Assembly (NCBI RefSeq): GCF_032393985.1
Contig: NZ_CP135918.1
Coordinates: 5,767,724 to 5,831,723 of the forward strand
Direction of reading: 5' to 3'
Source: Fischerella sp. JS2
GTDB taxonomy: Bacteria; Cyanobacteriota; Cyanobacteriia; Cyanobacteriales; Nostocaceae
DNA: 64,000 nucleotides
The position numbers and the translations under genes were made by a program. The notes under the pieces are model-generated. The model did not search any database. It was not told the origin of the DNA and saw nothing but the letters and a program-made list of their open reading frames with translations. This document shows positions 1,279 through 62,600 of this stretch, in pieces. Each line of letters opens with the position of its first letter. Position 1 is the first letter of the stretch.

Positions 1279-1815
1279 ATGGAAGCTCAACCACCTTTTC
1301 AGCAACCACACATATTACAAAACTCAGTGGTGGTGTTCTCCAAAAACTACCTACCACTGGCACGGATTAACATCAAACGCGCTGTTGTGCTGTTAGTCAC
1401 GGGTCAGGCAGAGTCGTTGGATTTCAGCAGCACAAAGCAGTGGGAAGTCCGTTCACCCAGCGTTGTACTACAAGTACCATCACATATCCGCTTAACTGTT
1501 GGCAATCCCGAACGGCATTGGAAAGTACCTCCTGTCAACCGTCGTGAAGTTTTGAGGCGAGACAACCACACCTGCCAATACTGCGGTAGTACCAAGCATT
1601 TAACGCTCTTACATGTAATACCCCGCTCAAAAGGTGGACAGCATACTTGGGACAACGTTGTAACAGCGTGCGAAAAATGCAACTCAACCAAGAGCGATCG
1701 CCTGCCACATGAAGCGGGAATGGTACTGAAAACCAAGCCTAAAGCCCCGATTCACCCAGCAGTGGCATTTGCCGAACAGTTTTGGAATGTACAACGCCTG
1801 AGTGAATCTGAGTAA
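1279..1815 (+). CDS. HNH endonuclease family protein
   Basis: A 178-residue protein with an HNH nuclease domain in its C-terminal half (about residues 90-150). Two CxxC zinc knuckles (CQYCG and CEKCN) flank the catalytic LLHVIPRSKGGQHTWDNV segment. The N-terminal half (VFSKNYLPLARINIKRAVVLLVTG) is the extension usual for cyanobacterial HNH proteins of this size. The start is supported by GAGGAG about 12 nt upstream. The protein probably cuts DNA or acts in DNA metabolism, but its target is unknown. It lies just upstream of the tRNA array. The second HNH gene at 4500 has a different architecture. Confidence 0.85.
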   Translation: MEAQPPFQQPHILQNSVVVFSKNYLPLARINIKRAVVLLVTGQAESLDFSSTKQWEVRSPSVVLQVPSHIRLTVGNPERHWKVPPVNRREVLRRDNHTCQYCGSTKHLTLLHVIPRSKGGQHTWDNVVTACEKCNSTKSDRLPHEAGMVLKTKPKAPIHPAVAFAEQFWNVQRLSESE

Positions 1816-1933: not shown

Positions 1934-2017
1934 TGTAGTAAAGCAAAAGAGCCTCCCAAAAAGGCACAGAGCTAACACTATCAGAACCATGAAAACTGAA
2001 TAATTGCCACCCAATGT

Positions 2018-2117
2018 GGGGGTGTAGCTTAGTCCGGTTTAAAGCAGTCGCCTGTCGAGCGAAAGATCGTGAGTACCTGCGGAAGCCGCTCCGCGTCTAC
2101 AAATCTCATCATCCCCG
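2018..2117 (+). tRNA. tRNA-Asp(GTC), T-loop interrupted by dispersed repeat
   Basis: Acceptor GGGGGTG/CATCCCC with discriminator G, a D-stem GCTT/AAGC and anticodon loop CTGTCGA. The T-stem GTGAG (2069-2073)/CTCAT is intact, but the T-loop (2074-2104) is 31 nt instead of 7 because it holds a GCGGAAGCCGCTCCGC palindrome. Confidence 0.7.
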
Positions 2118-2120
2118 TGT

Positions 2121-2194
2121 AGCCTTGTGGACAAATAGACAAGTCGCTGTGCCTCTCAAGCATGGAGAAGCGGGTGCAACTCCCGTCAAGGCTT
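2121..2194 (+). tRNA. tRNA-Glu(CTC), somewhat degenerate
   Basis: Perfect acceptor AGCCTTG/CAAGGCT and encoded CCA (2195-2197). The anticodon loop CTCTCAA gives CTC. The anticodon stem has two wobble pairs and the T-loop is TGCAACT rather than TTCAACT, so identity and function are less sure. Confidence 0.6.
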
Positions 2195-2200
2195 CCAAAT

Positions 2201-2271
2201 GTAGGGATGGTGTAACGGCAACATCACAGTCTCCAAAACTGTTGTTCTAGGTTCAAATCCTAGTCCTTGCG
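2201..2271 (+). tRNA. tRNA-Trp(CCA)
   Basis: Anticodon stem ACAGT/ACTGT encloses CTCCAAA (anticodon CCA). The T-arm CTAGG-TTCAAAT-CCTAG is perfect, the acceptor GTAGGGA/TCCTTGC has two wobbles, and the discriminator is G as expected for Trp. Confidence 0.75.
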
Positions 2272-2293
2272 TTCTACTGCGTGTCCTAACACG

Positions 2294-2357
2294 GGAAGCT
2301 TACAAACTGGTTAATCGGTCTATAAAACCGAAGTAGGTTCGACTCCTACAGCCTCCG
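2294..2357 (+). tRNA. Degenerate tRNA-like gene, anticodon ATA (Tyr codon)
   Basis: Anticodon stem TCGGT/ACCGA around CTATAAA, a perfect T-arm GTAGG/CCTAC and encoded CCA (2358-2360). The acceptor GGAAGCT/AGCCTCC has one mismatch. The D-arm is not recognisable and the variable region is about 1 nt, so it is probably a pseudo-tRNA. Confidence 0.45.
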
Positions 2358-2419
2358 CCAAACCTGGAGGCTGAAAAAAACAGCTTCTCAAACTTGCACG
2401 TGGTAGAAATCTCACTCTT

Positions 2420-2570
2420 GGTGCTGTAGGCAAATTGGTAAAGCCACAGGTCTTTCAATCCTGGGTTTGCGGGTACTCTACCCTTCGGGAACGCCTAACG
2501 GCGAACGAGAAGCCGCTGAGTCGCAAAGCGACACGCTGCGCGAACGCGTCTACAATTCCTGTCGGCACTG
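2420..2570 (+). tRNA. tRNA-Glu(TTC) with 84-nt T-loop
   Basis: Acceptor GGTGCTG/CGGCACT, loop CTTTCAA (anticodon TTC) and T-stem GCGGG (2469-2473)/CCTGT (2558-2562). The T-loop is expanded to 84 nt by several nested copies of the GAAGCCGC-type dispersed repeat, the largest insertion in the array. Confidence 0.65.
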
Positions 2571-2576
2571 CCTCAT

Positions 2577-2658
2577 GGGTCGGCTCACCTATTGGTGTAG
2601 GTAACGGTCTGTAAAACCGCCGCGTTCAGTATTGCTGGTTCAATTCCAGCCCGACCCA
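2577..2658 (+). tRNA. tRNA-Tyr(GTA)
   Basis: Intact class II tRNA: acceptor GGGTCGG/CCGACCC, anticodon loop CTGTAAA, long variable arm, T-arm GCTGG-TTCAATT-CCAGC, discriminator A. Confidence 0.9.
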
Positions 2659-2662
2659 TCAT

Positions 2663-2769
2663 GGAGAGATTGCTATTGGCAGGGCAAGCTGTTTGCTAAA
2701 CAGTCGTGGATGCAAGTTCATTGTGGGTACCCTTCGGGAAGGCTTCGCCTACAACTCCCTCTCTCTCCG
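2663..2769 (+). tRNA. tRNA-Ser(GCT) with T-loop insertion
   Basis: Class II tRNA with perfect acceptor GGAGAGA/TCTCTCC, anticodon loop TTGCTAA (GCT) and discriminator G. The T-loop (2728-2756) is 29 nt and contains the CCTTCGGGAAGG-type palindrome. Confidence 0.7.
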
Positions 2770-2774
2770 CCTTT

Positions 2775-2848
2775 GAGAACGTGGTGTAACTGGATAACAC
2801 ATCAGTCTACGAAACTGAAGATTGAGAGTTCAAGTCTCTCCATTCTCG
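2775..2848 (+). tRNA. tRNA-Arg(ACG)
   Basis: Anticodon stem TCAGT/ACTGA around CTACGAA, perfect T-arm GAGAG-TTCAAGT-CTCTC, acceptor GAGAACG/CATTCTC with one mismatch, discriminator G. Confidence 0.85.
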
Positions 2849-2854
2849 CCTTAT

Positions 2855-2931
2855 CCCCCGGTAGCTCAGTTTTGGTAGAGAGCGCTGGTCTGAAAAATCA
2901 GAGGTCGTCGGTTCGATTCCGACCTGGGGGA
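2855..2931 (+). tRNA. tRNA-Phe(GAA)
   Basis: Acceptor CCCCCGG/CTGGGGG, anticodon stem CTGGT/ATCAG around CTGAAAA, normal T-loop TTCGATT, discriminator A. Confidence 0.9.
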
Positions 2932-2940
2932 CTGGCACAT

Positions 2941-3012
2941 TGCCCCATAGCTCAATGGCAGAGCACGCGGCTGTTAACCGCGATGTTGCAAGTTCGACTC
3001 TTGCTGGGGCAG
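2941..3012 (+). tRNA. tRNA-Asn(GTT)
   Basis: Perfect acceptor TGCCCCA/TGGGGCA, anticodon stem CGCGG/CCGCG around CTGTTAA, T-arm GCAAG-TTCGACT-CTTGC, discriminator G with CCA encoded. Confidence 0.9.
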
Positions 3013-3020
3013 CCATTCAT

Positions 3021-3146
3021 TGCCGAGTGGACGACTTGGAAAGTCACCGTGACTCTGAATCATGGAGAAGTTGGTACCCTACCCTTCGGGAACCCTCTTC
3101 GAGGGAACGGGAAGCCACTTCGTGTCTACGACCCCAACCTCGGCAA
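3021..3146 (+). tRNA. tRNA-Gln(CTG) with 59-nt T-loop
   Basis: Perfect acceptor TGCCGAG/CTCGGCA, CCA encoded, anticodon loop CTCTGAA (CTG), T-stem GTTGG (3070-3074)/CCAAC (3134-3138). A compound palindromic repeat fills the T-loop (3075-3133). Confidence 0.65.
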
Positions 3147-3154
3147 CCAATTAT

Positions 3155-3229
3155 TGGGAAGTAGGCGACGTTGGTAAAGCCACCTGATTTTGGCTCAGGA
3201 TCTCGCGGGTTCGATTCCTGCCTTCCCAG
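3155..3229 (+). tRNA. tRNA-Gln(TTG)
   Basis: Perfect acceptor TGGGAAG/CTTCCCA, anticodon stem CCTGA/TCAGG around TTTTGGC (TTG), T-arm GCGGG-TTCGATT-CCTGC, discriminator G. Confidence 0.88.
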
Positions 3230-3238
3230 CCTATGTAT

Positions 3239-3316
3239 GCTCCTGTAGCCCAATTGGAAGAGGCGGCTGTCTCAAAAACAGTCTATTTTGTACGGGTTCG
3301 ACTCCCGTCAGGAGTA
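3239..3316 (+). tRNA. tRNA-Leu(CAA), reduced variable arm
   Basis: Acceptor GCTCCTG/CAGGAGT, anticodon stem GCTGT/ACAGT around CTCAAAA (CAA), T-arm ACGGG-TTCGACT-CCCGT, encoded CCA. The variable region is only about 9 nt, short for a bacterial tRNA-Leu. Confidence 0.75.
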
Positions 3317-3324
3317 CCAGATAT

Positions 3325-3398
3325 CGGGATGTAATTCAGTGGTCTAGAAGCCGTGATTTGGGGTCACGGAGTCGTAGGTTTAAATCCTACCATCCCGA
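3325..3398 (+). tRNA. tRNA-Pro(TGG)
   Basis: Perfect acceptor CGGGATG/CATCCCG, anticodon stem CGTGA/TCACG around TTTGGGG, T-loop TTTAAAT, CCA encoded. Confidence 0.88.
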
Positions 3399-3426
3399 CC
3401 ATTTGCTTCTGTTTTTGTACTAACTT

Positions 3427-3498
3427 GGGTCGTTGGCAGAGCGGGTATGCAGCCGCCTTTTAAGCGGACTTATCCAGGTTCAACCCCTGGGCGACCCA
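3427..3498 (+). tRNA. tRNA-Lys(TTT), first copy
   Basis: Acceptor GGGTCGT/GCGACCC, anticodon loop CTTTTAA, T-arm CCAGG-TTCAACC-CCTGG, discriminator A. Confidence 0.85.
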
Positions 3499-3502
3499 CC
3501 TT

Positions 3503-3575
3503 GGGCTGTTAGCTCAGTTGGCAGAGCAGCTGCCTCTTAAGCAGAAGTGCGTAGGTTCAACCCCTACACAGCCCA
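3503..3575 (+). tRNA. tRNA-Lys(CTT), first copy
   Basis: Perfect acceptor GGGCTGT/ACAGCCC, anticodon loop CTCTTAA, T-arm GTAGG-TTCAACC-CCTAC, discriminator A and encoded CCA. Confidence 0.88.
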
Positions 3576-3584
3576 CCAAATCAA

Positions 3585-3684
3585 ACCCCTGTGACGCAAT
3601 TGGCAGACGTAGCCCGCTTAAACCGGGTTTGTTGCAGGTACTCTTCGAGAAGCCGCTTTGCGTCTACGACTCCTGTCAGGGGTA
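3585..3684 (+). tRNA. tRNA-Leu(TAA) with T-loop insertion
   Basis: Perfect acceptor ACCCCTG/CAGGGGT, anticodon stem GCCCG/CGGGT around CTTAAAC. The T-stem GCAGG (3634-3638)/CCTGT (3672-3676) flanks a 33-nt T-loop. The variable region is about 5 nt, as in class I tRNAs. No group I intron is present. Confidence 0.65.
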
Positions 3685-3695
3685 TTTGGTAACAT

Positions 3696-3769
3696 CGCGG
3701 GGATGGAGCAACGGTGGCTCGTCAGGCTCATAACCTGAACATCGGCAGGTTCAACTCCTGCCCCCGTCA
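3696..3769 (+). tRNA. Initiator tRNA-fMet(CAT)
   Basis: Anticodon stem TCAGG/CCTGA around CTCATAA, an unpaired first acceptor position (C1 opposite C72) and the D-arm sequence GGCTCGTCAGG, all initiator features. T-arm GCAGG-TTCAACT-CCTGC, CCA encoded. Confidence 0.85.
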
Positions 3770-3780
3770 CCAAAATTAGT

Positions 3781-3876
3781 GCTGGTGTAGCTCAATGTGG
3801 CAGAGCAACTGACTTGTAATCAGCTTTGTTGCGGGTACTGCTTCGCAGAAGCAAGCTACAACTCCTGTCACCAGCT
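3781..3876 (+). tRNA. tRNA-Thr(TGT) with T-loop insertion, copy 1
   Basis: Perfect acceptor GCTGGTG/CACCAGC, anticodon stem CTGA/TCAG around CTTGTAA. T-stem GCGGG (3831-3835)/CCTGT encloses a 28-nt loop (3836-3863). Nearly identical to 5178-5273, insertion included. Confidence 0.7.
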
Positions 3877-3881
3877 TCGAT

Positions 3882-3954
3882 GCGGGTGTGATGTAGTGGC
3901 TAGCATCTGAGTGCGCCACACGAGCGCGCATGGGTTCAAATCCCATCACTCGCT
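3882..3954 (+). tRNA. tRNA-Gly(GCC), degenerate anticodon arm
   Basis: Acceptor GCGGGTG/CACTCGC with discriminator T, typical of Gly, and a perfect T-arm ATGGG-TTCAAAT-CCCAT. By position the anticodon is GCC, but the anticodon stem pairs poorly and base 33 is C. Confidence 0.5.
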
Positions 3955-3959
3955 CTCGT

Positions 3960-4031
3960 AGCCCTGTAGCTCAATGGTGGAGCAACTGTCCTACAAACAG
4001 AGGGTTGCAGGTTCAATCCCTGCCGGGGCTA
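3960..4031 (+). tRNA. tRNA-Val(TAC), copy 1
   Basis: Acceptor AGCCCTG/CGGGGCT, anticodon loop CCTACAA (TAC, with C instead of T at position 33), T-arm GCAGG-TTCAATC-CCTGC, encoded CCA. Confidence 0.75.
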
Positions 4032-4040
4032 CCAATTTAT

Positions 4041-4138
4041 GGGAGTGTCGCCTAATGGACAAGGCAACCGTCTTCTAAACGGTTTTATGTAGGTACCTGC
4101 GGAAGCCGCTACCGCGTCTACAAATCCTACCACTCCGA
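4041..4138 (+). tRNA. tRNA-Arg(TCT) with T-loop insertion, copy 1
   Basis: Anticodon stem ACCGT/ACGGT around CTTCTAA, acceptor GGGAGTG/CACTCCG with the terminal pair lost, T-stem GTAGG (4089-4093)/CCTAC. The T-loop is 32 nt. Copy 2 at 5441 lacks the insertion. Confidence 0.7.
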
Positions 4139-4144
4139 CCATTT

Positions 4145-4218
4145 GCCCTTGTGACGAAACTGGCAAACGTGCTGGTCTTAGAAACCAGATTTTGTGGGTT
4201 CAAATCCCACCAAGGGTA
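4145..4218 (+). tRNA. tRNA-Leu(TAG), short variable arm
   Basis: Acceptor GCCCTTG/CAAGGGT, anticodon stem CTGGT/ACCAG around CTTAGAA, T-arm GTGGG-TTCAAAT-CCCAC. The variable region is about 5 nt, unlike normal class II tRNA-Leu. Confidence 0.75.
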
Positions 4219-4227
4219 TTAAAAATT

Positions 4228-4300
4228 GGGTCGTTAGCTCAATGGCTAGAGTTCCCGCCTTTTAAGCGGAGTGATCAGAGTTCGAGTCTCTGGCGACCCA
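4228..4300 (+). tRNA. tRNA-Lys(TTT), second copy
   Basis: Acceptor GGGTCGT/GCGACCC, anticodon loop CTTTTAA, T-arm CAGAG-TTCGAGT-CTCTG, CCA encoded. Confidence 0.87.
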
Positions 4301-4308
4301 CCAAATAT

Positions 4309-4404
4309 GGGCGTTTGGCAGAACGGTTATGCTCCTGACTCTTAATCAGGCGCTCCACAGGTACCCTGCGGGAAGCCACTTCCTGTCTACAACTCCTGCT
4401 CACC
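4309..4404 (+). tRNA. Probable pseudo-tRNA-Lys(CTT) with T-loop insertion
   Basis: The anticodon stem CCTGA/TCAGG around CTCTTAA is perfect, but the 3' acceptor strand does not pair with the 5' GGGCGTT. The T-loop (4362-4394) is 33 nt and holds the GCGGGAAGCC-type repeat. Confidence 0.45.
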
Positions 4405-4411
4405 AAATTAT

Positions 4412-4485
4412 GCCCCTGTAACCCAATTGGAAGAGGTGCCAAACTTAAAATTTGGAAGTTGCTGGTTCAAATCCAGTCAGGGGTA
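4412..4485 (+). tRNA. tRNA-Leu(TAA), second copy, short variable arm
   Basis: Acceptor GCCCCTG/CAGGGGT, anticodon stem CCAAA/TTTGG around CTTAAAA, T-arm GCTGG-TTCAAAT-CCAGT, variable region about 5 nt. No T-loop insertion and no intron. Confidence 0.78.
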
Positions 4486-4486
4486 T

Positions 4487-5171
4487 CGCGGAGATAGAGC
4501 TATGGTGCGCTATGAGGTTTTTCAAGGGGTAGGATTAGTAATCCATTATCAAATTCCCAATGATGGTTAGGGCATAAGCCTACAAGATTAGACAATGCAT
4601 TTATTTCAGAGATTAAGGCATCTTGAGGAAAGCTACTAACAGGTTCAATATGGCAAACTTCAATGTGCTTGTCATATCCACAAATCTGACAGGAGGCTTG
4701 AGGGTATTTTTGGTGAAACAGCTTAGAGGCACTCCTTTGAACTTTGCTTCTAGCAGCCTGCCAAGAAGCACTCTTAGAAAAAACCTCTGCCTTGGTTCTC
4801 TGTAGAAAATCAGGCTTTCTTTGGTTTCCAATAGCAATCTTTCCTTTAGCCTTTTTCAGGCAGGCATCGCAATACTTTCGTCTAATGTAGCCCCCTCCCT
4901 TGTAGGGTTTGAGGTGAACGATTGTGTTGCATCCTAAGCAGTTGATCTGCCTTCCTAGTTTGGGTTTCGGGTGCTTTATATTTGTGTATCTTGTTGAGCA
5001 GGATTTGTTACAAAATCTTCTTTTAGCAAAATCACGAGTTTTTTCTTCTTCACGTCTTATTAAAGGAATCGAACAAAATTCACAAAGCCTTTGAGACACA
5101 AAAACAACCCTAAACCTCTGGCAACACTATAGCTCAATCTCACGTACCGGGTTCAAATCCCGGCTCCGCTA
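4487..5171 (+). pseudogene. tRNA-like gene split by an HNH endonuclease gene
   Basis: A 5' tRNA part (CGCGGAG acceptor at 4487-4493, then ATAGAGCTATGGT) and a 3' part (T-arm CCGGG-TTCAAAT-CCCGG, acceptor CTCCGCT at 5164-5170, then A and CCA) pair at six of seven acceptor positions. They are separated by the minus-strand HNH gene. The 5' part resembles an initiator tRNA. The joined halves lack a complete anticodon arm, so this is not a clean intron. Confidence 0.5.
4500..5099 (-). CDS. HNH endonuclease with N-terminal zinc fingers
   Basis: A 199-residue protein. The N-terminal half has several CxxC pairs (CEFC near residue 6, CNKSC near 30, CLGCN near 55, CDAC near 77), suggesting two zinc-binding modules. 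The C-terminal half has the HNH core: CQICGY, then IEVCHIEPVSSFP, then NLVGLCPNHHWEFD. It lies on the strand opposite to the tRNAs and its stop codon falls within the 5' part of the split tRNA, so it is an insertion in that gene. Phage- and intron-associated HNH homing endonucleases have this layout. Homing into a tRNA gene is the natural guess but is not shown here. Confidence 0.85.
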   Translation of the reverse strand: MSQRLCEFCSIPLIRREEEKTRDFAKRRFCNKSCSTRYTNIKHPKPKLGRQINCLGCNTIVHLKPYKGGGYIRRKYCDACLKKAKGKIAIGNQRKPDFLQRTKAEVFSKSASWQAARSKVQRSASKLFHQKYPQASCQICGYDKHIEVCHIEPVSSFPQDALISEINALSNLVGLCPNHHWEFDNGLLILPLEKPHSAP

Positions 5172-5177
5172 CCAAAT

Positions 5178-5273
5178 GCTGGTGTAGCTCAATGTGGCAG
5201 AGCAACTGACTTGTAATCAGCTTTGTTGTGGGTACTGCTTTGCAGAAGCAAGCTACAACTCCTGTCACCAGCT
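5178..5273 (+). tRNA. tRNA-Thr(TGT) with T-loop insertion, copy 2
   Basis: Same as 3781-3876 apart from a few substitutions, including the 28-nt T-loop (5233-5260). The insertion therefore predates this duplication. Confidence 0.7.
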
Positions 5274-5281
5274 TGACTAAT

Positions 5282-5353
5282 GCGATCGTGGTGTAACGGC
5301 AGCATCAGAGTCTTCCTCTCCTCACGGTACGAGTTCGAGTCTCGTCGATCGCT
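5282..5353 (+). tRNA. tRNA-Gly(TCC), degenerate anticodon stem
   Basis: Perfect acceptor GCGATCG/CGATCGC, discriminator T, perfect T-arm ACGAG-TTCGAGT-CTCGT. The loop CTTCCTC gives anticodon TCC, but the anticodon stem has only two or three pairs. Confidence 0.5.
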
Positions 5354-5358
5354 CTTTT

Positions 5359-5431
5359 AGCCCTGTAACTCAGTTGGTAGAGTGCCTCTTTTACAAAGAG
5401 GAAGTAGCGGGTTCAATTCCTGCCAGGGCTA
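5359..5431 (+). tRNA. tRNA-Val(TAC), copy 2
   Basis: Acceptor AGCCCTG/CAGGGCT, anticodon stem CCTCT/AGAGG around TTTACAA, T-arm GCGGG-TTCAATT-CCTGC, CCA encoded. Better preserved than the copy at 3960. Confidence 0.87.
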
Positions 5432-5440
5432 CCAATTTAT

Positions 5441-5512
5441 GGGAGTGTCGCCTAATGGATGGGCATCGATCTTCTAAATCGATTTGTAGGGGTTCAAGTC
5501 CCTTCACTCCTG
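5441..5512 (+). tRNA. tRNA-Arg(TCT), copy 2
   Basis: Anticodon stem TCGAT/ATCGA around CTTCTAA, T-arm AGGGG-TTCAAGT-CCCTT, acceptor GGGAGTG/CACTCCT, discriminator G. No T-loop insertion. Confidence 0.85.
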
Positions 5513-5518
5513 CTATTT

Positions 5519-5592
5519 GGGGTCATAGCTCAACTGGCTAGAGCGTCCGCCTTGCAAGCGGGAGGTTAGGGGTTCAAATCCCCTTGATTCCA
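5519..5592 (+). tRNA. tRNA-Ala(TGC)
   Basis: Acceptor GGGGTCA/TGATTCC, anticodon stem TCCGC/GCGGG around CTTGCAA, T-arm AGGGG-TTCAAAT-CCCCT, discriminator A. Confidence 0.85.
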
Positions 5593-5597
5593 CTTTT

Positions 5598-5693
5598 GGT
5601 GTTTGAAGCCAAAGCGGTCGCGGCGCCCCTTTGTGGAACCAGTCATAACGGGTACCGCTTCGCGGAAGCAAGCTACAAGTCCCGTCAGACACC
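5598..5693 (+). tRNA. tRNA-His(GTG) with T-loop insertion
   Basis: Acceptor GTGTTTG/CAGACAC with an extra G(-1) opposite C73, the His hallmark. The anticodon GTG sits in TTGTGGA, but its stem pairs poorly. The T-stem ACGGG/CCCGT encloses a 28-nt loop (5653-5680). Confidence 0.55.
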
Positions 5694-5699
5694 CCTCAT

Positions 5700-5782
5700 G
5701 GAAGATGCTGCTCAAGGGAGGGCAACTAGTCTTGAAAACTAGAGCAGGGTCACACCTGGGGGTTCAATTCCTCCATCTTCCG
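5700..5782 (+). tRNA. tRNA-Ser(TGA)
   Basis: Class II tRNA: perfect acceptor GGAAGAT/ATCTTCC, anticodon stem CTAGT/ACTAG around CTTGAAA, long variable arm, normal T-loop TTCAATT, discriminator G. Last tRNA of the array. Confidence 0.88.
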
Positions 5783-6090
5783 TTTTCCACTCTTTTGCCG
5801 ACTCCGCCACGGCGATGTGCTGATAACACAGATACAGGAGGGGCAGTACCTCCCTGGTGGATTAGCTTTTCCGTTGGTTTAATACCAACTAAGATTTTCC
5901 AAAAAACCGCTTTTCTCAATAAAAGCATTTCCACCAATAACGTTATTGGCAAAGAATTTATCTTCAAAACAACATAAATGGGATGCTATCAAGTCATCTC
6001 ATAAAAAAACTGATACTATTGCTGCTAAATAGTGAAAGTTAATCGTGATGAAAGCGCAGTAGTACATTTAGCACGCATCGTCTAAAAATT
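5783..6090. other. Intergenic region between tRNA array and parA, with palindrome
   Basis: No gene is recognised here. It holds small hairpins (GGAGGGGCAGTACCTCCC near 5838; GTTGGTTTAATACCAAC near 5874) and a 16-bp perfect palindrome, CCAATAACGTTATTGG at 5934-5949. Confidence 0.5.
5934..5949. promoter_or_regulatory. parS-like palindrome, copy 1
   Basis: Perfect palindrome CCAATAACGTTATTGG upstream of parA. The same 16 bp, with matching flanks, recurs inside parB at 7197-7212. It may be a centromere-like ParB site or a dispersed palindromic repeat. Confidence 0.4.
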
Positions 6091-6732
6091 ATGATTATTG
6101 GGTTAACGAACCAAAAAGGGGGAGCAGGCAAAACCACTGTATCTGGGCATTTGGCATATTGGTTAAGCCAACGCGGAACAGTGATGGTTGGGGATGCAGA
6201 TGCACAAGCTAGCAGTACCAATTGGATGAAAGACCTGCAACTGCCGTGTAAAACAATGATAGACCCGGATGATTTATTTGATGAACTTCCAGCACTAGCA
6301 GAACAATATGATGCTGTAGTTGTAGACGGTCCAGGTAGCCTGAGTGAGACAACCAAGGCAATCTTATCTAGATGTGACTTGGCTTTAGTACCCTGTAAAC
6401 CAGCAGGTCTAGATATGCACAGTACATCCAAGATGTTACGTATCCTATGACAAGCAAGAGAATTACGTTCGGGAATGCCTCATGTAGGTTTGTTTTTAAA
6501 TCAGGCCAAAAAAGGGACTGTCCTGCTCAAAGATGCCCAAAGAGCATTATCACAGAAAAATACAGGGTTTCCTCTACTAAAAACGATGGTGTATGACCTC
6601 CAAGTAATTGCCGATGCACCAGGGCAAGGCACGACAGTTTGAGGATTAGGGGGAGCAACAGCCAAACGTGCAGCCAAGGACTTTGAGGAACTTTTTACTG
6701 AAGCCTTGGGGGTAGCCAATGGCAAAGGATAG
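6091..6732 (+). pseudogene. parA: ParA-family partition ATPase with two in-frame TGA codons
   Basis: The frame begins MIIGLTNQKGGAGKTT, a deviant Walker A motif (KGGAGKTT, residues 9-16) of plasmid ParA/Soj ATPases. The DGPGSLSE Walker B region and ALVPCKPAG follow. A TGA interrupts it at 6448-6450, where LRIL-x-QAREL implies Arg. Translation stays open and ParA-like (VGLFLNQAKKGT) until a second TGA at 6640-6642, then to TAG at 6730-6732. Both interruptions are TGA and no frame change is needed. Its end overlaps parB by 14 nt, as expected for a parAB operon. The likely explanation is nonsense decay; recoding is a remote alternative. Confidence 0.75.
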
Positions 6733-7636
6733 ACGACTGGTAGAAGATTTCATCTTTAGGGACGAGGAGGCAAATAAAAAGCCGACTACTATGCCTCTAA
6801 GTTTGATTGTGTTGCCCAAAGAGGAACTGCGCTACTACATTGACCCAGAAGAAGTAGAAAAAATAGTTGCTAGTGCCAGAAAAAACGGCATACTCGAATC
6901 GCTTTTGGTTCGTCCTATCCCTGGTAGTAAGCAACATGAAGTAGTAGCAGGGGCAAAACGCTACAGAGCAGCACAGATTCTTGAACTTGCATCCGTCCCT
7001 GTAGTCGTCCGCGAACTTAATGACGAAGATGCCCTAGAAATTGCCCTCATAGAAAACTTTGCTCGTTCAGCACTCACTGACCTTGAAGAAACAGATGGAG
7101 TTGTAAGGCTTTTAGCTGTCAAGCTCAAAATTTCACCCCAAGAAGTACCACCACTGCTGCATCACATCCAAAACCAACTTCGGGGTAGACTCGCCACCAA
7201 TAACGTTATTGGCAATGATGTAATTGCTGTAGTGCAATCTTGTTTAACCTCACTCGGCAACATCAAACTAGATTCATTTATCAGTAATCGTCTGCCCTTA
7301 CTCAATTTACCCAGCGACATTTTAGAGGTGTTGCGCCAGGGGAAATTGGAGACAAGTAAAGCCAAAGCGATCGCACGAGTTGGTGATGAGGAAACTAGAA
7401 AAGAACTGCTAGAGAATGCCATAGCCTACAATCTCTCACTCAATGAAATCAAACGCAAAATTAAAGAAATTGAGCAGCAATTTTTCCCAGAAACCTCATC
7501 AATAAAAGACCAAGTTGATGATACTTTACGCCGCTTCAAACAATCTAAAGTGTGGGATGACCCCAAGAAAAAAGCCAAGGTAGAGAAGCTGTTGGCACAG
7601 TTAGAAGCATTGATGAAAGATGACAAGACCAATTGA
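6719..7636 (+). CDS. parB: ParB/RepB/Spo0J-family partition protein
   Basis: A 305-residue protein with an N-terminal ParB nuclease-like domain: YIDPEEVEKIVASARKNGIL, then VVAGAKRYRAAQIL (the ParB GxxRYRA box, about residues 78-90) and ALEIALIENFARSALTDLEE (the second conserved ParB box). A coiled, basic C-terminal part (residues 230-305) suits dimerisation. It overlaps parA, so the pair forms a plasmid-type partition operon. A 16-bp palindrome shared with the region upstream of parA lies in frame at residues about 160-165 (TNNVIGN). The frame is intact even though parA is not. Confidence 0.85.
   Translation: MAKDRRLVEDFIFRDEEANKKPTTMPLSLIVLPKEELRYYIDPEEVEKIVASARKNGILESLLVRPIPGSKQHEVVAGAKRYRAAQILELASVPVVVRELNDEDALEIALIENFARSALTDLEETDGVVRLLAVKLKISPQEVPPLLHHIQNQLRGRLATNNVIGNDVIAVVQSCLTSLGNIKLDSFISNRLPLLNLPSDILEVLRQGKLETSKAKAIARVGDEETRKELLENAIAYNLSLNEIKRKIKEIEQQFFPETSSIKDQVDDTLRRFKQSKVWDDPKKKAKVEKLLAQLEALMKDDKTN
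7197..7212. promoter_or_regulatory. parS-like palindrome, copy 2, inside parB
   Basis: Identical to 5934-5949, with the flanks CCA on the left and CAA on the right also conserved. It encodes NNVIG in the parB frame. Confidence 0.4.
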
Positions 7637-18670: not shown

Positions 18671-18954
18671 GAGACGCGATTAATCGCGTCTGTACAATTT
18701 GCGATTAATCGCGTCTGTACAATTATTCAGTTATCAAATTGAATTGCTAACTGTTTAGTATAGCCTACAGCAAGCCCTTTGGGTAGGGACGCTACCTGCG
18801 GAAGCCGCTCCGCGTCTACGCGAACGCAGTCGCACTCTACGAGAAGCCGCTTGCGCGTCTACATGGGGGAAACCCCCAAGACCGCGCTGTCTCACTGCTT
18901 GTAAACATACACTAATTTAACAATTCTTTCGACTGCTCAAACAAAGGAGTAATC
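18671..18954. repeat. Dispersed repeats between NYN gene and Ubl operon
   Basis: Two tandem copies of GCGATTAATCGCGTCTGTAC (18671-18724) are followed by a compound GAAGCCGC-type repeat (about 18780-18862: CTGCGGAAGCCGCTCCGC, then GAGAAGCCGCTTGCGC). The second is the same family that invades tRNA T-loops. The region upstream of 18955 should contain the operon promoter. Confidence 0.7.
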
Positions 18955-62561: not shown

Positions 62562-62600
62562 CTGTACCCTACGGGAAGTCTATGAGCGCGTCTACACTGT
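62562..62600. repeat. Dispersed GCGTCTAC-type repeat
   Basis: GTACCCTACGGGAAGTCTAT followed by GAGCGCGTCTAC has the ends seen in the tRNA T-loop insertions. Confidence 0.6.

Follow-up and report, generated by a model that had tools for sequence, protein, structure and literature searches.

The trn operon of Anabaena PCC 7120, as described in the available portion of PMC10272220, comprises 26 genes on a plasmid. Standard culture leaves it silent, with TrcR acting as repressor at a TGTAGTAT site (and on rtcB as well), and antibiotics that target translation activate it. A comparable array lies in the stretch of DNA considered here, 64,000 nucleotides of Fischerella sp. JS2 (positions 5,767,724–5,831,723 of a one-contig, 7.02-Mb cyanobacterial genome), which I will call the window. 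It shares with the operon of Anabaena a long, redundant set of tRNA genes, an adjoining HNH gene and a TrcR-type site (PMC10272220 and PMC9938897, the portions available), and differs from it in being chromosomal rather than plasmid-borne. The words "T-loop" and "insertion" do not occur in the main text of PMC10272220 on the Anabaena operon. In the window, ten tRNA genes of the array carry T-loop inserts that are probably very small mobile repeats of the SDR type, inserting site-specifically with a liking for the T-arm and surviving in a redundant operon. A literature search limited to open-licence papers found no prior account of T-loop inserts in these tRNAs.

The SDR elements of Nostoc punctiforme, reportedly described by Elhai et al. 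in 2008 (Genome Res 18:1484), are said to be hairpin-forming sequences of 21–27 nt that sit in heptameric repeats, nest within themselves and are confined to one cyanobacterial group. The element in the window presumably belongs with them, agreeing with that definition in length, copy number, embedding in tandem repeats and self-nesting: eight of the ten window inserts are 22–27 nt long, and there are many dispersed copies, local repeats and nested copies. I know of no tRNA T-loop hot spot and no one-base exchange described for SDR. Hairpin inserts in the loops of a structured RNA gene, as in these tRNAs, are also familiar from the intervening sequences of bacterial 23S rRNA, which RNase III cuts out. 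REPIN/RAYT systems offer another likeness, tiny hairpin repeats thought to be non-autonomous mobile DNA, from which the cyanobacterial element differs in its target rule and in having no partner transposase identified for it (PMC3116915, part available; the same part cites the SDR paper of Elhai et al. and mentions it once). For a seemingly known kind of element, what is added here is a habitat that is striking and a rule of insertion that is sharp. An unexplained class of tiny mobile repeats is thereby made testable, through a junction rule of nearly single-base precision, a hot spot, and clean pairs of empty and occupied sites. Nature has also provided here a set of tRNA genes that carry inserts of at least 22 nt at position 55, one of the bases of the tRNA elbow, in an operon that is inducible in Anabaena, which opens the questions of how much a tRNA can bear and whether inserts of this kind are removed in bacteria.

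The initial annotation reported ten tRNAs with T-loops of 28–84 nt, and all ten were recovered, with tRNA-His beginning at 5599. The Rfam model RF00005 alone misses several of them; custom scanners were written and a covariance model built. The strict scanner found eight, a relaxed pass added tRNA-Ser, and, owing to its degenerate acceptor stem, tRNA-Lys at 4309 had to be assigned by eye. Over window positions 1990–5800, ARAGORN counts 21 tRNA genes and Rfam, at its gathering threshold, 26, including four with an insert. The array, its inserted tRNAs, and two copies claimed near 18780 and 62562, both of which are present, are as follows.

2018..5782, plus strand: long tRNA array (trn operon or L-array type)
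2018..2116, plus strand: tRNA-Asp(GTC), insert at 2075-2099, 25 nt
2420..2569, plus strand: tRNA-Glu(TTC), insert at 2475-2552, 78 nt, nested
2663..2768, plus strand: tRNA-Ser(GCT), insert at 2729-2751, 23 nt
3021..3145, plus strand: tRNA-Gln(CTG), insert at 3076-3128, 53 nt, nested
3585..3683, plus strand: tRNA-Leu(TAA), insert at 3640-3666, 27 nt
3781..3875, plus strand: tRNA-Thr(TGT), insert at 3837-3858, 22 nt
4041..4137, plus strand: tRNA-Arg(TCT), insert at 4095-4120, 26 nt; no insert in its paralogue, 5441-5513
4309..4406, plus strand: tRNA-Lys(CTT)-like, insert at 4363-4389, 27 nt
5178..5272, plus strand: second copy of tRNA-Thr(TGT), insert at 5234-5255, 22 nt
5599..5692, plus strand: tRNA-His, insert at 5654-5675, 22 nt
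18780..18870, plus strand: mosaic of the same element, outside tRNA genes
62562..62596, plus strand: the same element in a CACTGTT-type repeat, AACTGT[A...A]CACTG

All ten tRNAs read stem-G53-T54-[A...A]-C56-R57-A58, base 55 having been exchanged for an insert with A at both ends, so that the insert lies between T54 and C56, just as the initial annotation had it. Its statement that the TTC motif is lost is right for U55, the base that becomes pseudouridine 55 in tRNA; C56, R57 and A58 are all kept. The inserts are related, as proposed, and yet are not a single sequence: several related types occur in the array, each built from two small hairpins, and besides the eight single units the inserts of tRNA-Glu and tRNA-Gln are a copy within a copy.

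The exchange of one base can be seen directly in tRNA-Leu(CAA) genes whose 5' 55 nt are identical, the empty form reading GGGTTCAATTCCC and the occupied form GGGT[ACCCTGCGG...GTCTA]CAATTCCC; 19 of the 30 best-matching loci that were read have no insert, a pattern that either vertical inheritance or repeated insertion might have produced. The rule can be followed further in 57 copies of the GTCTAC type from the same genome, inside or outside tRNA genes, in which the C after the element is fixed by the search pattern and the base before it is T in 45 (GT in 40), C in 11 and A in one. A neighbouring repeat unit shows the empty site for 28 of the 57, and exactly one base has been exchanged in 26 of these (T 19, G 5, C 2). 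Nested copies keep the junction: CCC-T[A...A]C-GGG in the tRNA-Gln of the window and CTC-T[A...A]C-GAG in its tRNA-Glu, with others in L212 (tRNA-Tyr) and L242, loci elsewhere being cited by number. The one-base rule is followed on the opposite strand as well, by a tRNA-Arg copy of L247 (CTTT[A...A]CAG, against CTTTTCAG in L031) and a tRNA-Phe copy of L224 (TTTT[A...A]CAG, against TTTTTCAG in the window). Insertion with duplication of a TAC target site was considered and rejected, many inserts ending in GAAC and empty sites reading TTC.

Because the same exchange is found in tandem repeats and in the element's own hairpin loops, the placement is attributed to choice of target, mostly TTC, and not to selection for hairpins. 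The target preference proposed earlier for the GGTTC box is thus upheld as to target choice, given the one-base exchanges, and not as to the box: the observations support a core of TTC (more loosely N-C) on either strand, as in the antisense copies of tRNA-Arg(ACG) and tRNA-Phe, beyond which T-arms are strongly over-hit.

The inserts recur in other genomes, as comparison with related arrays brought out. Fourteen relatives, plasmid-borne arrays of Nostoc, Tolypothrix, Calothrix and Kovacikia chosen by array homology alone, contain 21 inserted T-arms by scanner, a part of them in tRNA types without an insert in the window (Gly, Val, Tyr). The covariance model, built from 18 inserted tRNAs, was applied at E ≤ 1e-9, as against a best value of 1.7e-7 for normal tRNAs of the same genome outside the array. 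Matches at that cut were found in 74 of 217 genomes of the family (counted from the results table) and, across the order, in 30 of 291 genomes and 22 of 122 genera, seven of the 30 belonging to the same family. An inserted T-arm was present in all 49 loci with model matches that were read (40 stretches from 32 genomes and nine more), although in L233 and L237, both among the 40, only by a relaxed or manual pass; the match in L222 lies in a Y-like RNA rather than a tRNA.

To compare sites, elements were counted in 48 array loci, consisting of the window, seven plasmid loci and the 40 stretches, with the plasmid records left out that equal in length the plasmids bearing eight of the 40. The total is about 130 inserted T-arms against 13 elements elsewhere. 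On the tRNA strand there are 101 strict cases, with 62 distinct inserts among them, followed by 24 modules from the relaxed pass, which was added as the strict scanner bars T-stem mismatches, and 11 unassigned modules. Reading by eye gave further T-arms for 23 of the 24 and six of the 11. As for the remaining unassigned modules, two belong, as second modules, to elements that the count includes, another two are situated upstream of arrays (L214, L235), and one, in L215, forms with one of the relaxed modules a single element outside any tRNA. The opposite strand has 20 modules, eight of which are ordinary tRNA sequence (by eye) and 12 of which make up ten elements, with no T-arm among them: five beside the anticodon stem of tRNA-Arg(ACG) (L044, L212, L225, L226, L247), three in the anticodon loop of tRNA-Phe (L224, L229, L236), one at the 3' end of tRNA-Gly (L229) and one in the anticodon region of tRNA-Arg(TCT) (L215). 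Inserts are also found in T-arms of Y-RNA-like RNAs (L217, L221, L222/L304).

Whether T-arms are hit beyond what the junction predicts may be judged from the hexamer GTTCRA. In the array of the window 10 of 33 such sites are occupied (plus strand, by hand), against 1 of 610 in an even 800-kb sample of the same genome, a ratio of about 185 (Fisher p = 3e-13); with the same automatic detector on both sides the figures are 4 of 33 and 1 of 610, a 74-fold ratio (p = 3e-5). Both p-values are post hoc, the array having been chosen for its inserts. The excess is thus roughly 70–185 times. The density of copies in the array is about 118- and 120-fold that of the genome by two patterns, which have 50 and 49 matches in the 7.02 Mb. 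In the 800 kb, both strands, the T-arm scanner gave one hit, unrelated to the element. Two other tools were less discriminating: a first regular expression for genome copies was near chance (53 matches, against 42 in reversed sequence) and served as a lead only, and a two-hairpin detector was noisy (38, against about 22 in reversed controls). The refuting condition named in the initial annotation, genome-wide copies without a preference for tRNA T-loops, meets a mixed result, since most copies lie outside tRNAs and T-arms are preferred nonetheless. Tolerance of insertions in non-coding DNA should explain an excess of only a few-fold, because such DNA is only a fraction of the genome. Because the junction alone does not account for the density, a TTC in a hairpin loop would appear to be preferred, the hairpin and not only the hexamer being recognised; the antisense copies in the tRNA-Phe anticodon loop agree with such a preference.

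The mechanism proposed would run as follows. A unit of about 22–27 nt, made of two adjacent mini-hairpins with A at both ends, would usually take the place of one base before a C, mostly the middle T of TTC, on the strand that bears the TTC. The T-arm, presenting TTC in a hairpin loop, would be the favoured target, giving sense insertion at position 55; further targets would be short tandem repeats, the anticodon loop of tRNA-Phe, where the opposite strand has the TTC, and the TNC hairpin loops of the element itself, insertion into which would produce nested copies. Movement would presumably depend on an enzyme supplied from elsewhere. Survivors would be met with in the trn operon, whose redundancy and usual silence make damage to a single gene cheap, and inserts in single essential tRNAs would be lost. 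Tolerance through redundancy is consistent with the tRNAs outside the array, 43 distinct sequences that cover all 20 amino acids at normal length (45 non-array loci, a set that excludes hits at 3,691,626 and 2,643,371 and tRNA-like hits at 4.94 Mb), and with matches of the inserted-tRNA model outside the array in the same genome, which are all 71–73 nt long among the 150 of 977 candidates scored. A narrower version, possible though doubtful, makes the insertion structure-targeted: a TTC that either strand presents in the loop of a small DNA hairpin would have its middle base exchanged. The T-arm would be the natural hot spot, and secondary sites would be the anticodon loop of tRNA-Phe and the TNC loops within the element. 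Antisense copies favour DNA rather than RNA as the target; an RNA-mediated route may nevertheless operate.

Several points weigh against the proposal of a site-specific mobile repeat or its details. The share of T-arms is inflated on two counts, 40 of the 48 loci having been picked for a hit, and elements whose first hairpin has 2 bp being seen in T-arms and missed elsewhere; and the uniformity of the 101 cases is partly by construction, the strict scanner demanding G-T-A and A-C-R-A, respectively, at the two junctions. The base rule is not absolute: 12 of the 57 genome copies lack a preceding T, the Arg(ACG) copies of L212, L225 and L226 begin with another base, and those of L212 and L225 keep TT and look like plain insertions before C that cost no base. 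No hairpin loop is obvious around the copies in tandem repeats or those at the foot of the anticodon stem of tRNA-Arg, which keeps hairpin recognition at the level of a supposition. No mobility enzyme was found for the element. Finally, ARAGORN is unable to report inserted tRNAs and is weak evidence that chromosomal tRNAs are empty; the inserted-tRNA model is a better check, limited to the fraction of candidates scored.

The state of the inserted tRNAs bears on the alternatives. Acceptor stems are without mismatch in 93 of 101 inserted tRNAs and 766 of 822 normal ones (same thresholds, p = 0.68), and neither acceptor score (p = 0.67) nor T-stem score (p = 0.78) distinguishes the two sets, both of which were filtered for pairing. 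Good anticodon stems are found in 62% and 71%, respectively (no significance test), and a further 29 T-arms come from relaxed or manual reading only, several with a T-stem mismatch. Intact pairing of this sort would fit recent insertion or continued constraint, and is no demonstration of function. It could be taken to mean that the inserts are selected, the enlarged T-loop helping the tRNA against tRNA-cleaving toxins or antibiotics, or acting as a processing switch in a stress operon. The recurrence of inserts across the order and the induction of the Anabaena operon by translation-targeting antibiotics (PMC10272220, part available) would suit such a role. I consider it unlikely: the inserts vary in sequence and length, most tRNA-Leu(CAA) loci read (19 of 30) do without one, the same junction is found in repeats that are not tRNAs, and antisense copies in anticodon loops destroy the anticodon. 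The selection for T-loop hairpins offered in the initial annotation is not supported, on the first two of these grounds.

The inserts might instead be tRNA introns, an endonuclease cutting the transcript and RtcB, for instance, rejoining the halves. In Anabaena, rtcB is under repression by TrcR along with the trn operon (PMC10272220, part available), and with T-stem and acceptor still paired the halves would be kept together by 12 bp. Removal of [A...A], however, leaves a 6-nt loop without U55, and retention of one A puts A at position 55. To my knowledge no bacterial tRNA splicing endonuclease has been described, a further point that makes this quite improbable. Very improbable too is neutral decay, in which random small insertions gather in dead tRNA genes: it draws on the redundancy of the array in JS2, on the silence of the Anabaena operon in standard culture (PMC10272220, part available) and on the degeneracy of some array tRNAs (Lys 4309, those with GCTCTTTC T-stems or anticodon-loop inserts), and leaves unaccounted for both stem scores like those of normal tRNAs and the concentration of about 130 of 143 elements, selection bias noted, at one base of the T-loop. 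An assembly or sequencing artefact, for which no supporting point was found, is a negligible prospect when independent plasmid records and many genomes have inserts of differing sequence at the same base.

Returning to the array in which these presumed mobile repeats reside, its sequence identifies it as of the trn operon or L-array type by tRNA order, an upstream HNH gene and a TrcR-type site, the last two lying as follows.

1279..1815, plus strand: open reading frame of 178 aa for an HNH endonuclease, upstream of the array; an HNH gene is annotated there in 9 of the 14 plasmid relatives
1912..1930, no strand assigned: inverted ATACTACA/TGTAGTAT, matching the published TrcR site of the trn operon (motif from PMC10272220, part available)

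A TGTAGTAT box is found 92–95 nt upstream of tRNA-Asp in 12 of the 14 relatives. Directly downstream of the array, at window positions 6091-7636, are open reading frames that appear by eye to be ParA-like (a short one, ending at 6450) and ParB-like; because the same is true of some plasmid relatives, the chromosomal region of the array looks plasmid-derived. Part of the array is duplicated (Thr, Val, Arg; 3781-4137 and 5178-5513), the Arg insert being in one copy only. An HNH-like open reading frame at 4500-5099 (minus strand; motif by eye) splits a tRNA, apparent halves of which flank it (4488-5173), and resembles a homing endonuclease in a tRNA gene. Two peculiarities were seen in other arrays. 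In those of L032, L033, L035, L037 and L038, tRNAs for Thr, Val, Tyr and Leu have the 5' strand of the T-stem replaced by the string CTCTTTC, which breaks the T-stem and for which an origin as excision scars was considered, and in two arrays the anticodon region of tRNA-Arg(TCT) contains large perfect hairpins (L035 4819-4928; L215 near 4105).

The window also contains one of the Y-RNA-like RNAs mentioned above.

2275..2405, plus strand: Y-RNA-like RNA with a tRNA-like T-arm and anticodon-like hairpins, between tRNA-Trp and tRNA-Glu

Such RNAs share a scaffold of lower stem, internal loop (YCCYAA / AACTTGCAC) and upper stem, and the pairs of the lower stem show covariation in a set of 113 distinct sequences; 22 of 25 genomes have the 5' motif. 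Other copies carry what I take, from known motifs and by eye, to be a piece like 23S helices 69-71, the sarcin-ricin loop with the GTPase centre, or a permuted tRNA, or carry nothing. Scaffold RNAs bearing one or other of the modules (tRNA-like, 23S-like or permuted tRNA) are in L301 (7809, 7955, 8783), L302 (9378) and L303-L305. Y-like RNAs fall below Rfam thresholds (YrlA scores 20.1 bits in L222, against a cutoff of 69), and TrcR-like boxes near them are about as many as chance gives in 18 kb, by my estimate.

The copies cluster with a 482-aa Ro60-like protein of HEAT and VWA domains, around whose gene 104 Y-like RNAs were found in 37 of 50 loci: 75 with a T-arm, 15 bare, seven of other kinds, four with the helix 69-71 motif and three with motifs of the sarcin-ricin loop and GTPase centre. 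Pfam TROVE had no match among the scanned proteins or in the JS2 genome, and the protein had no sequence match in PDB. Its best AlphaFold model has a mean confidence (pLDDT) of 81, the other four 56–68, and the 12 top PDB matches of that model are all Ro60, Rsr or TROVE structures (template-modelling score 0.57–0.67, 14–18% identity). On this predicted structure the protein and RNAs may be read as a divergent branch of the Ro60/Y-RNA system, the RNAs possibly being mimics or decoys of parts of the translation apparatus. Within one cluster of Y-like RNAs, just before the Ro60-like gene, lies an open reading frame like ribosomal protein L7/L12 (L304 11514-11906).

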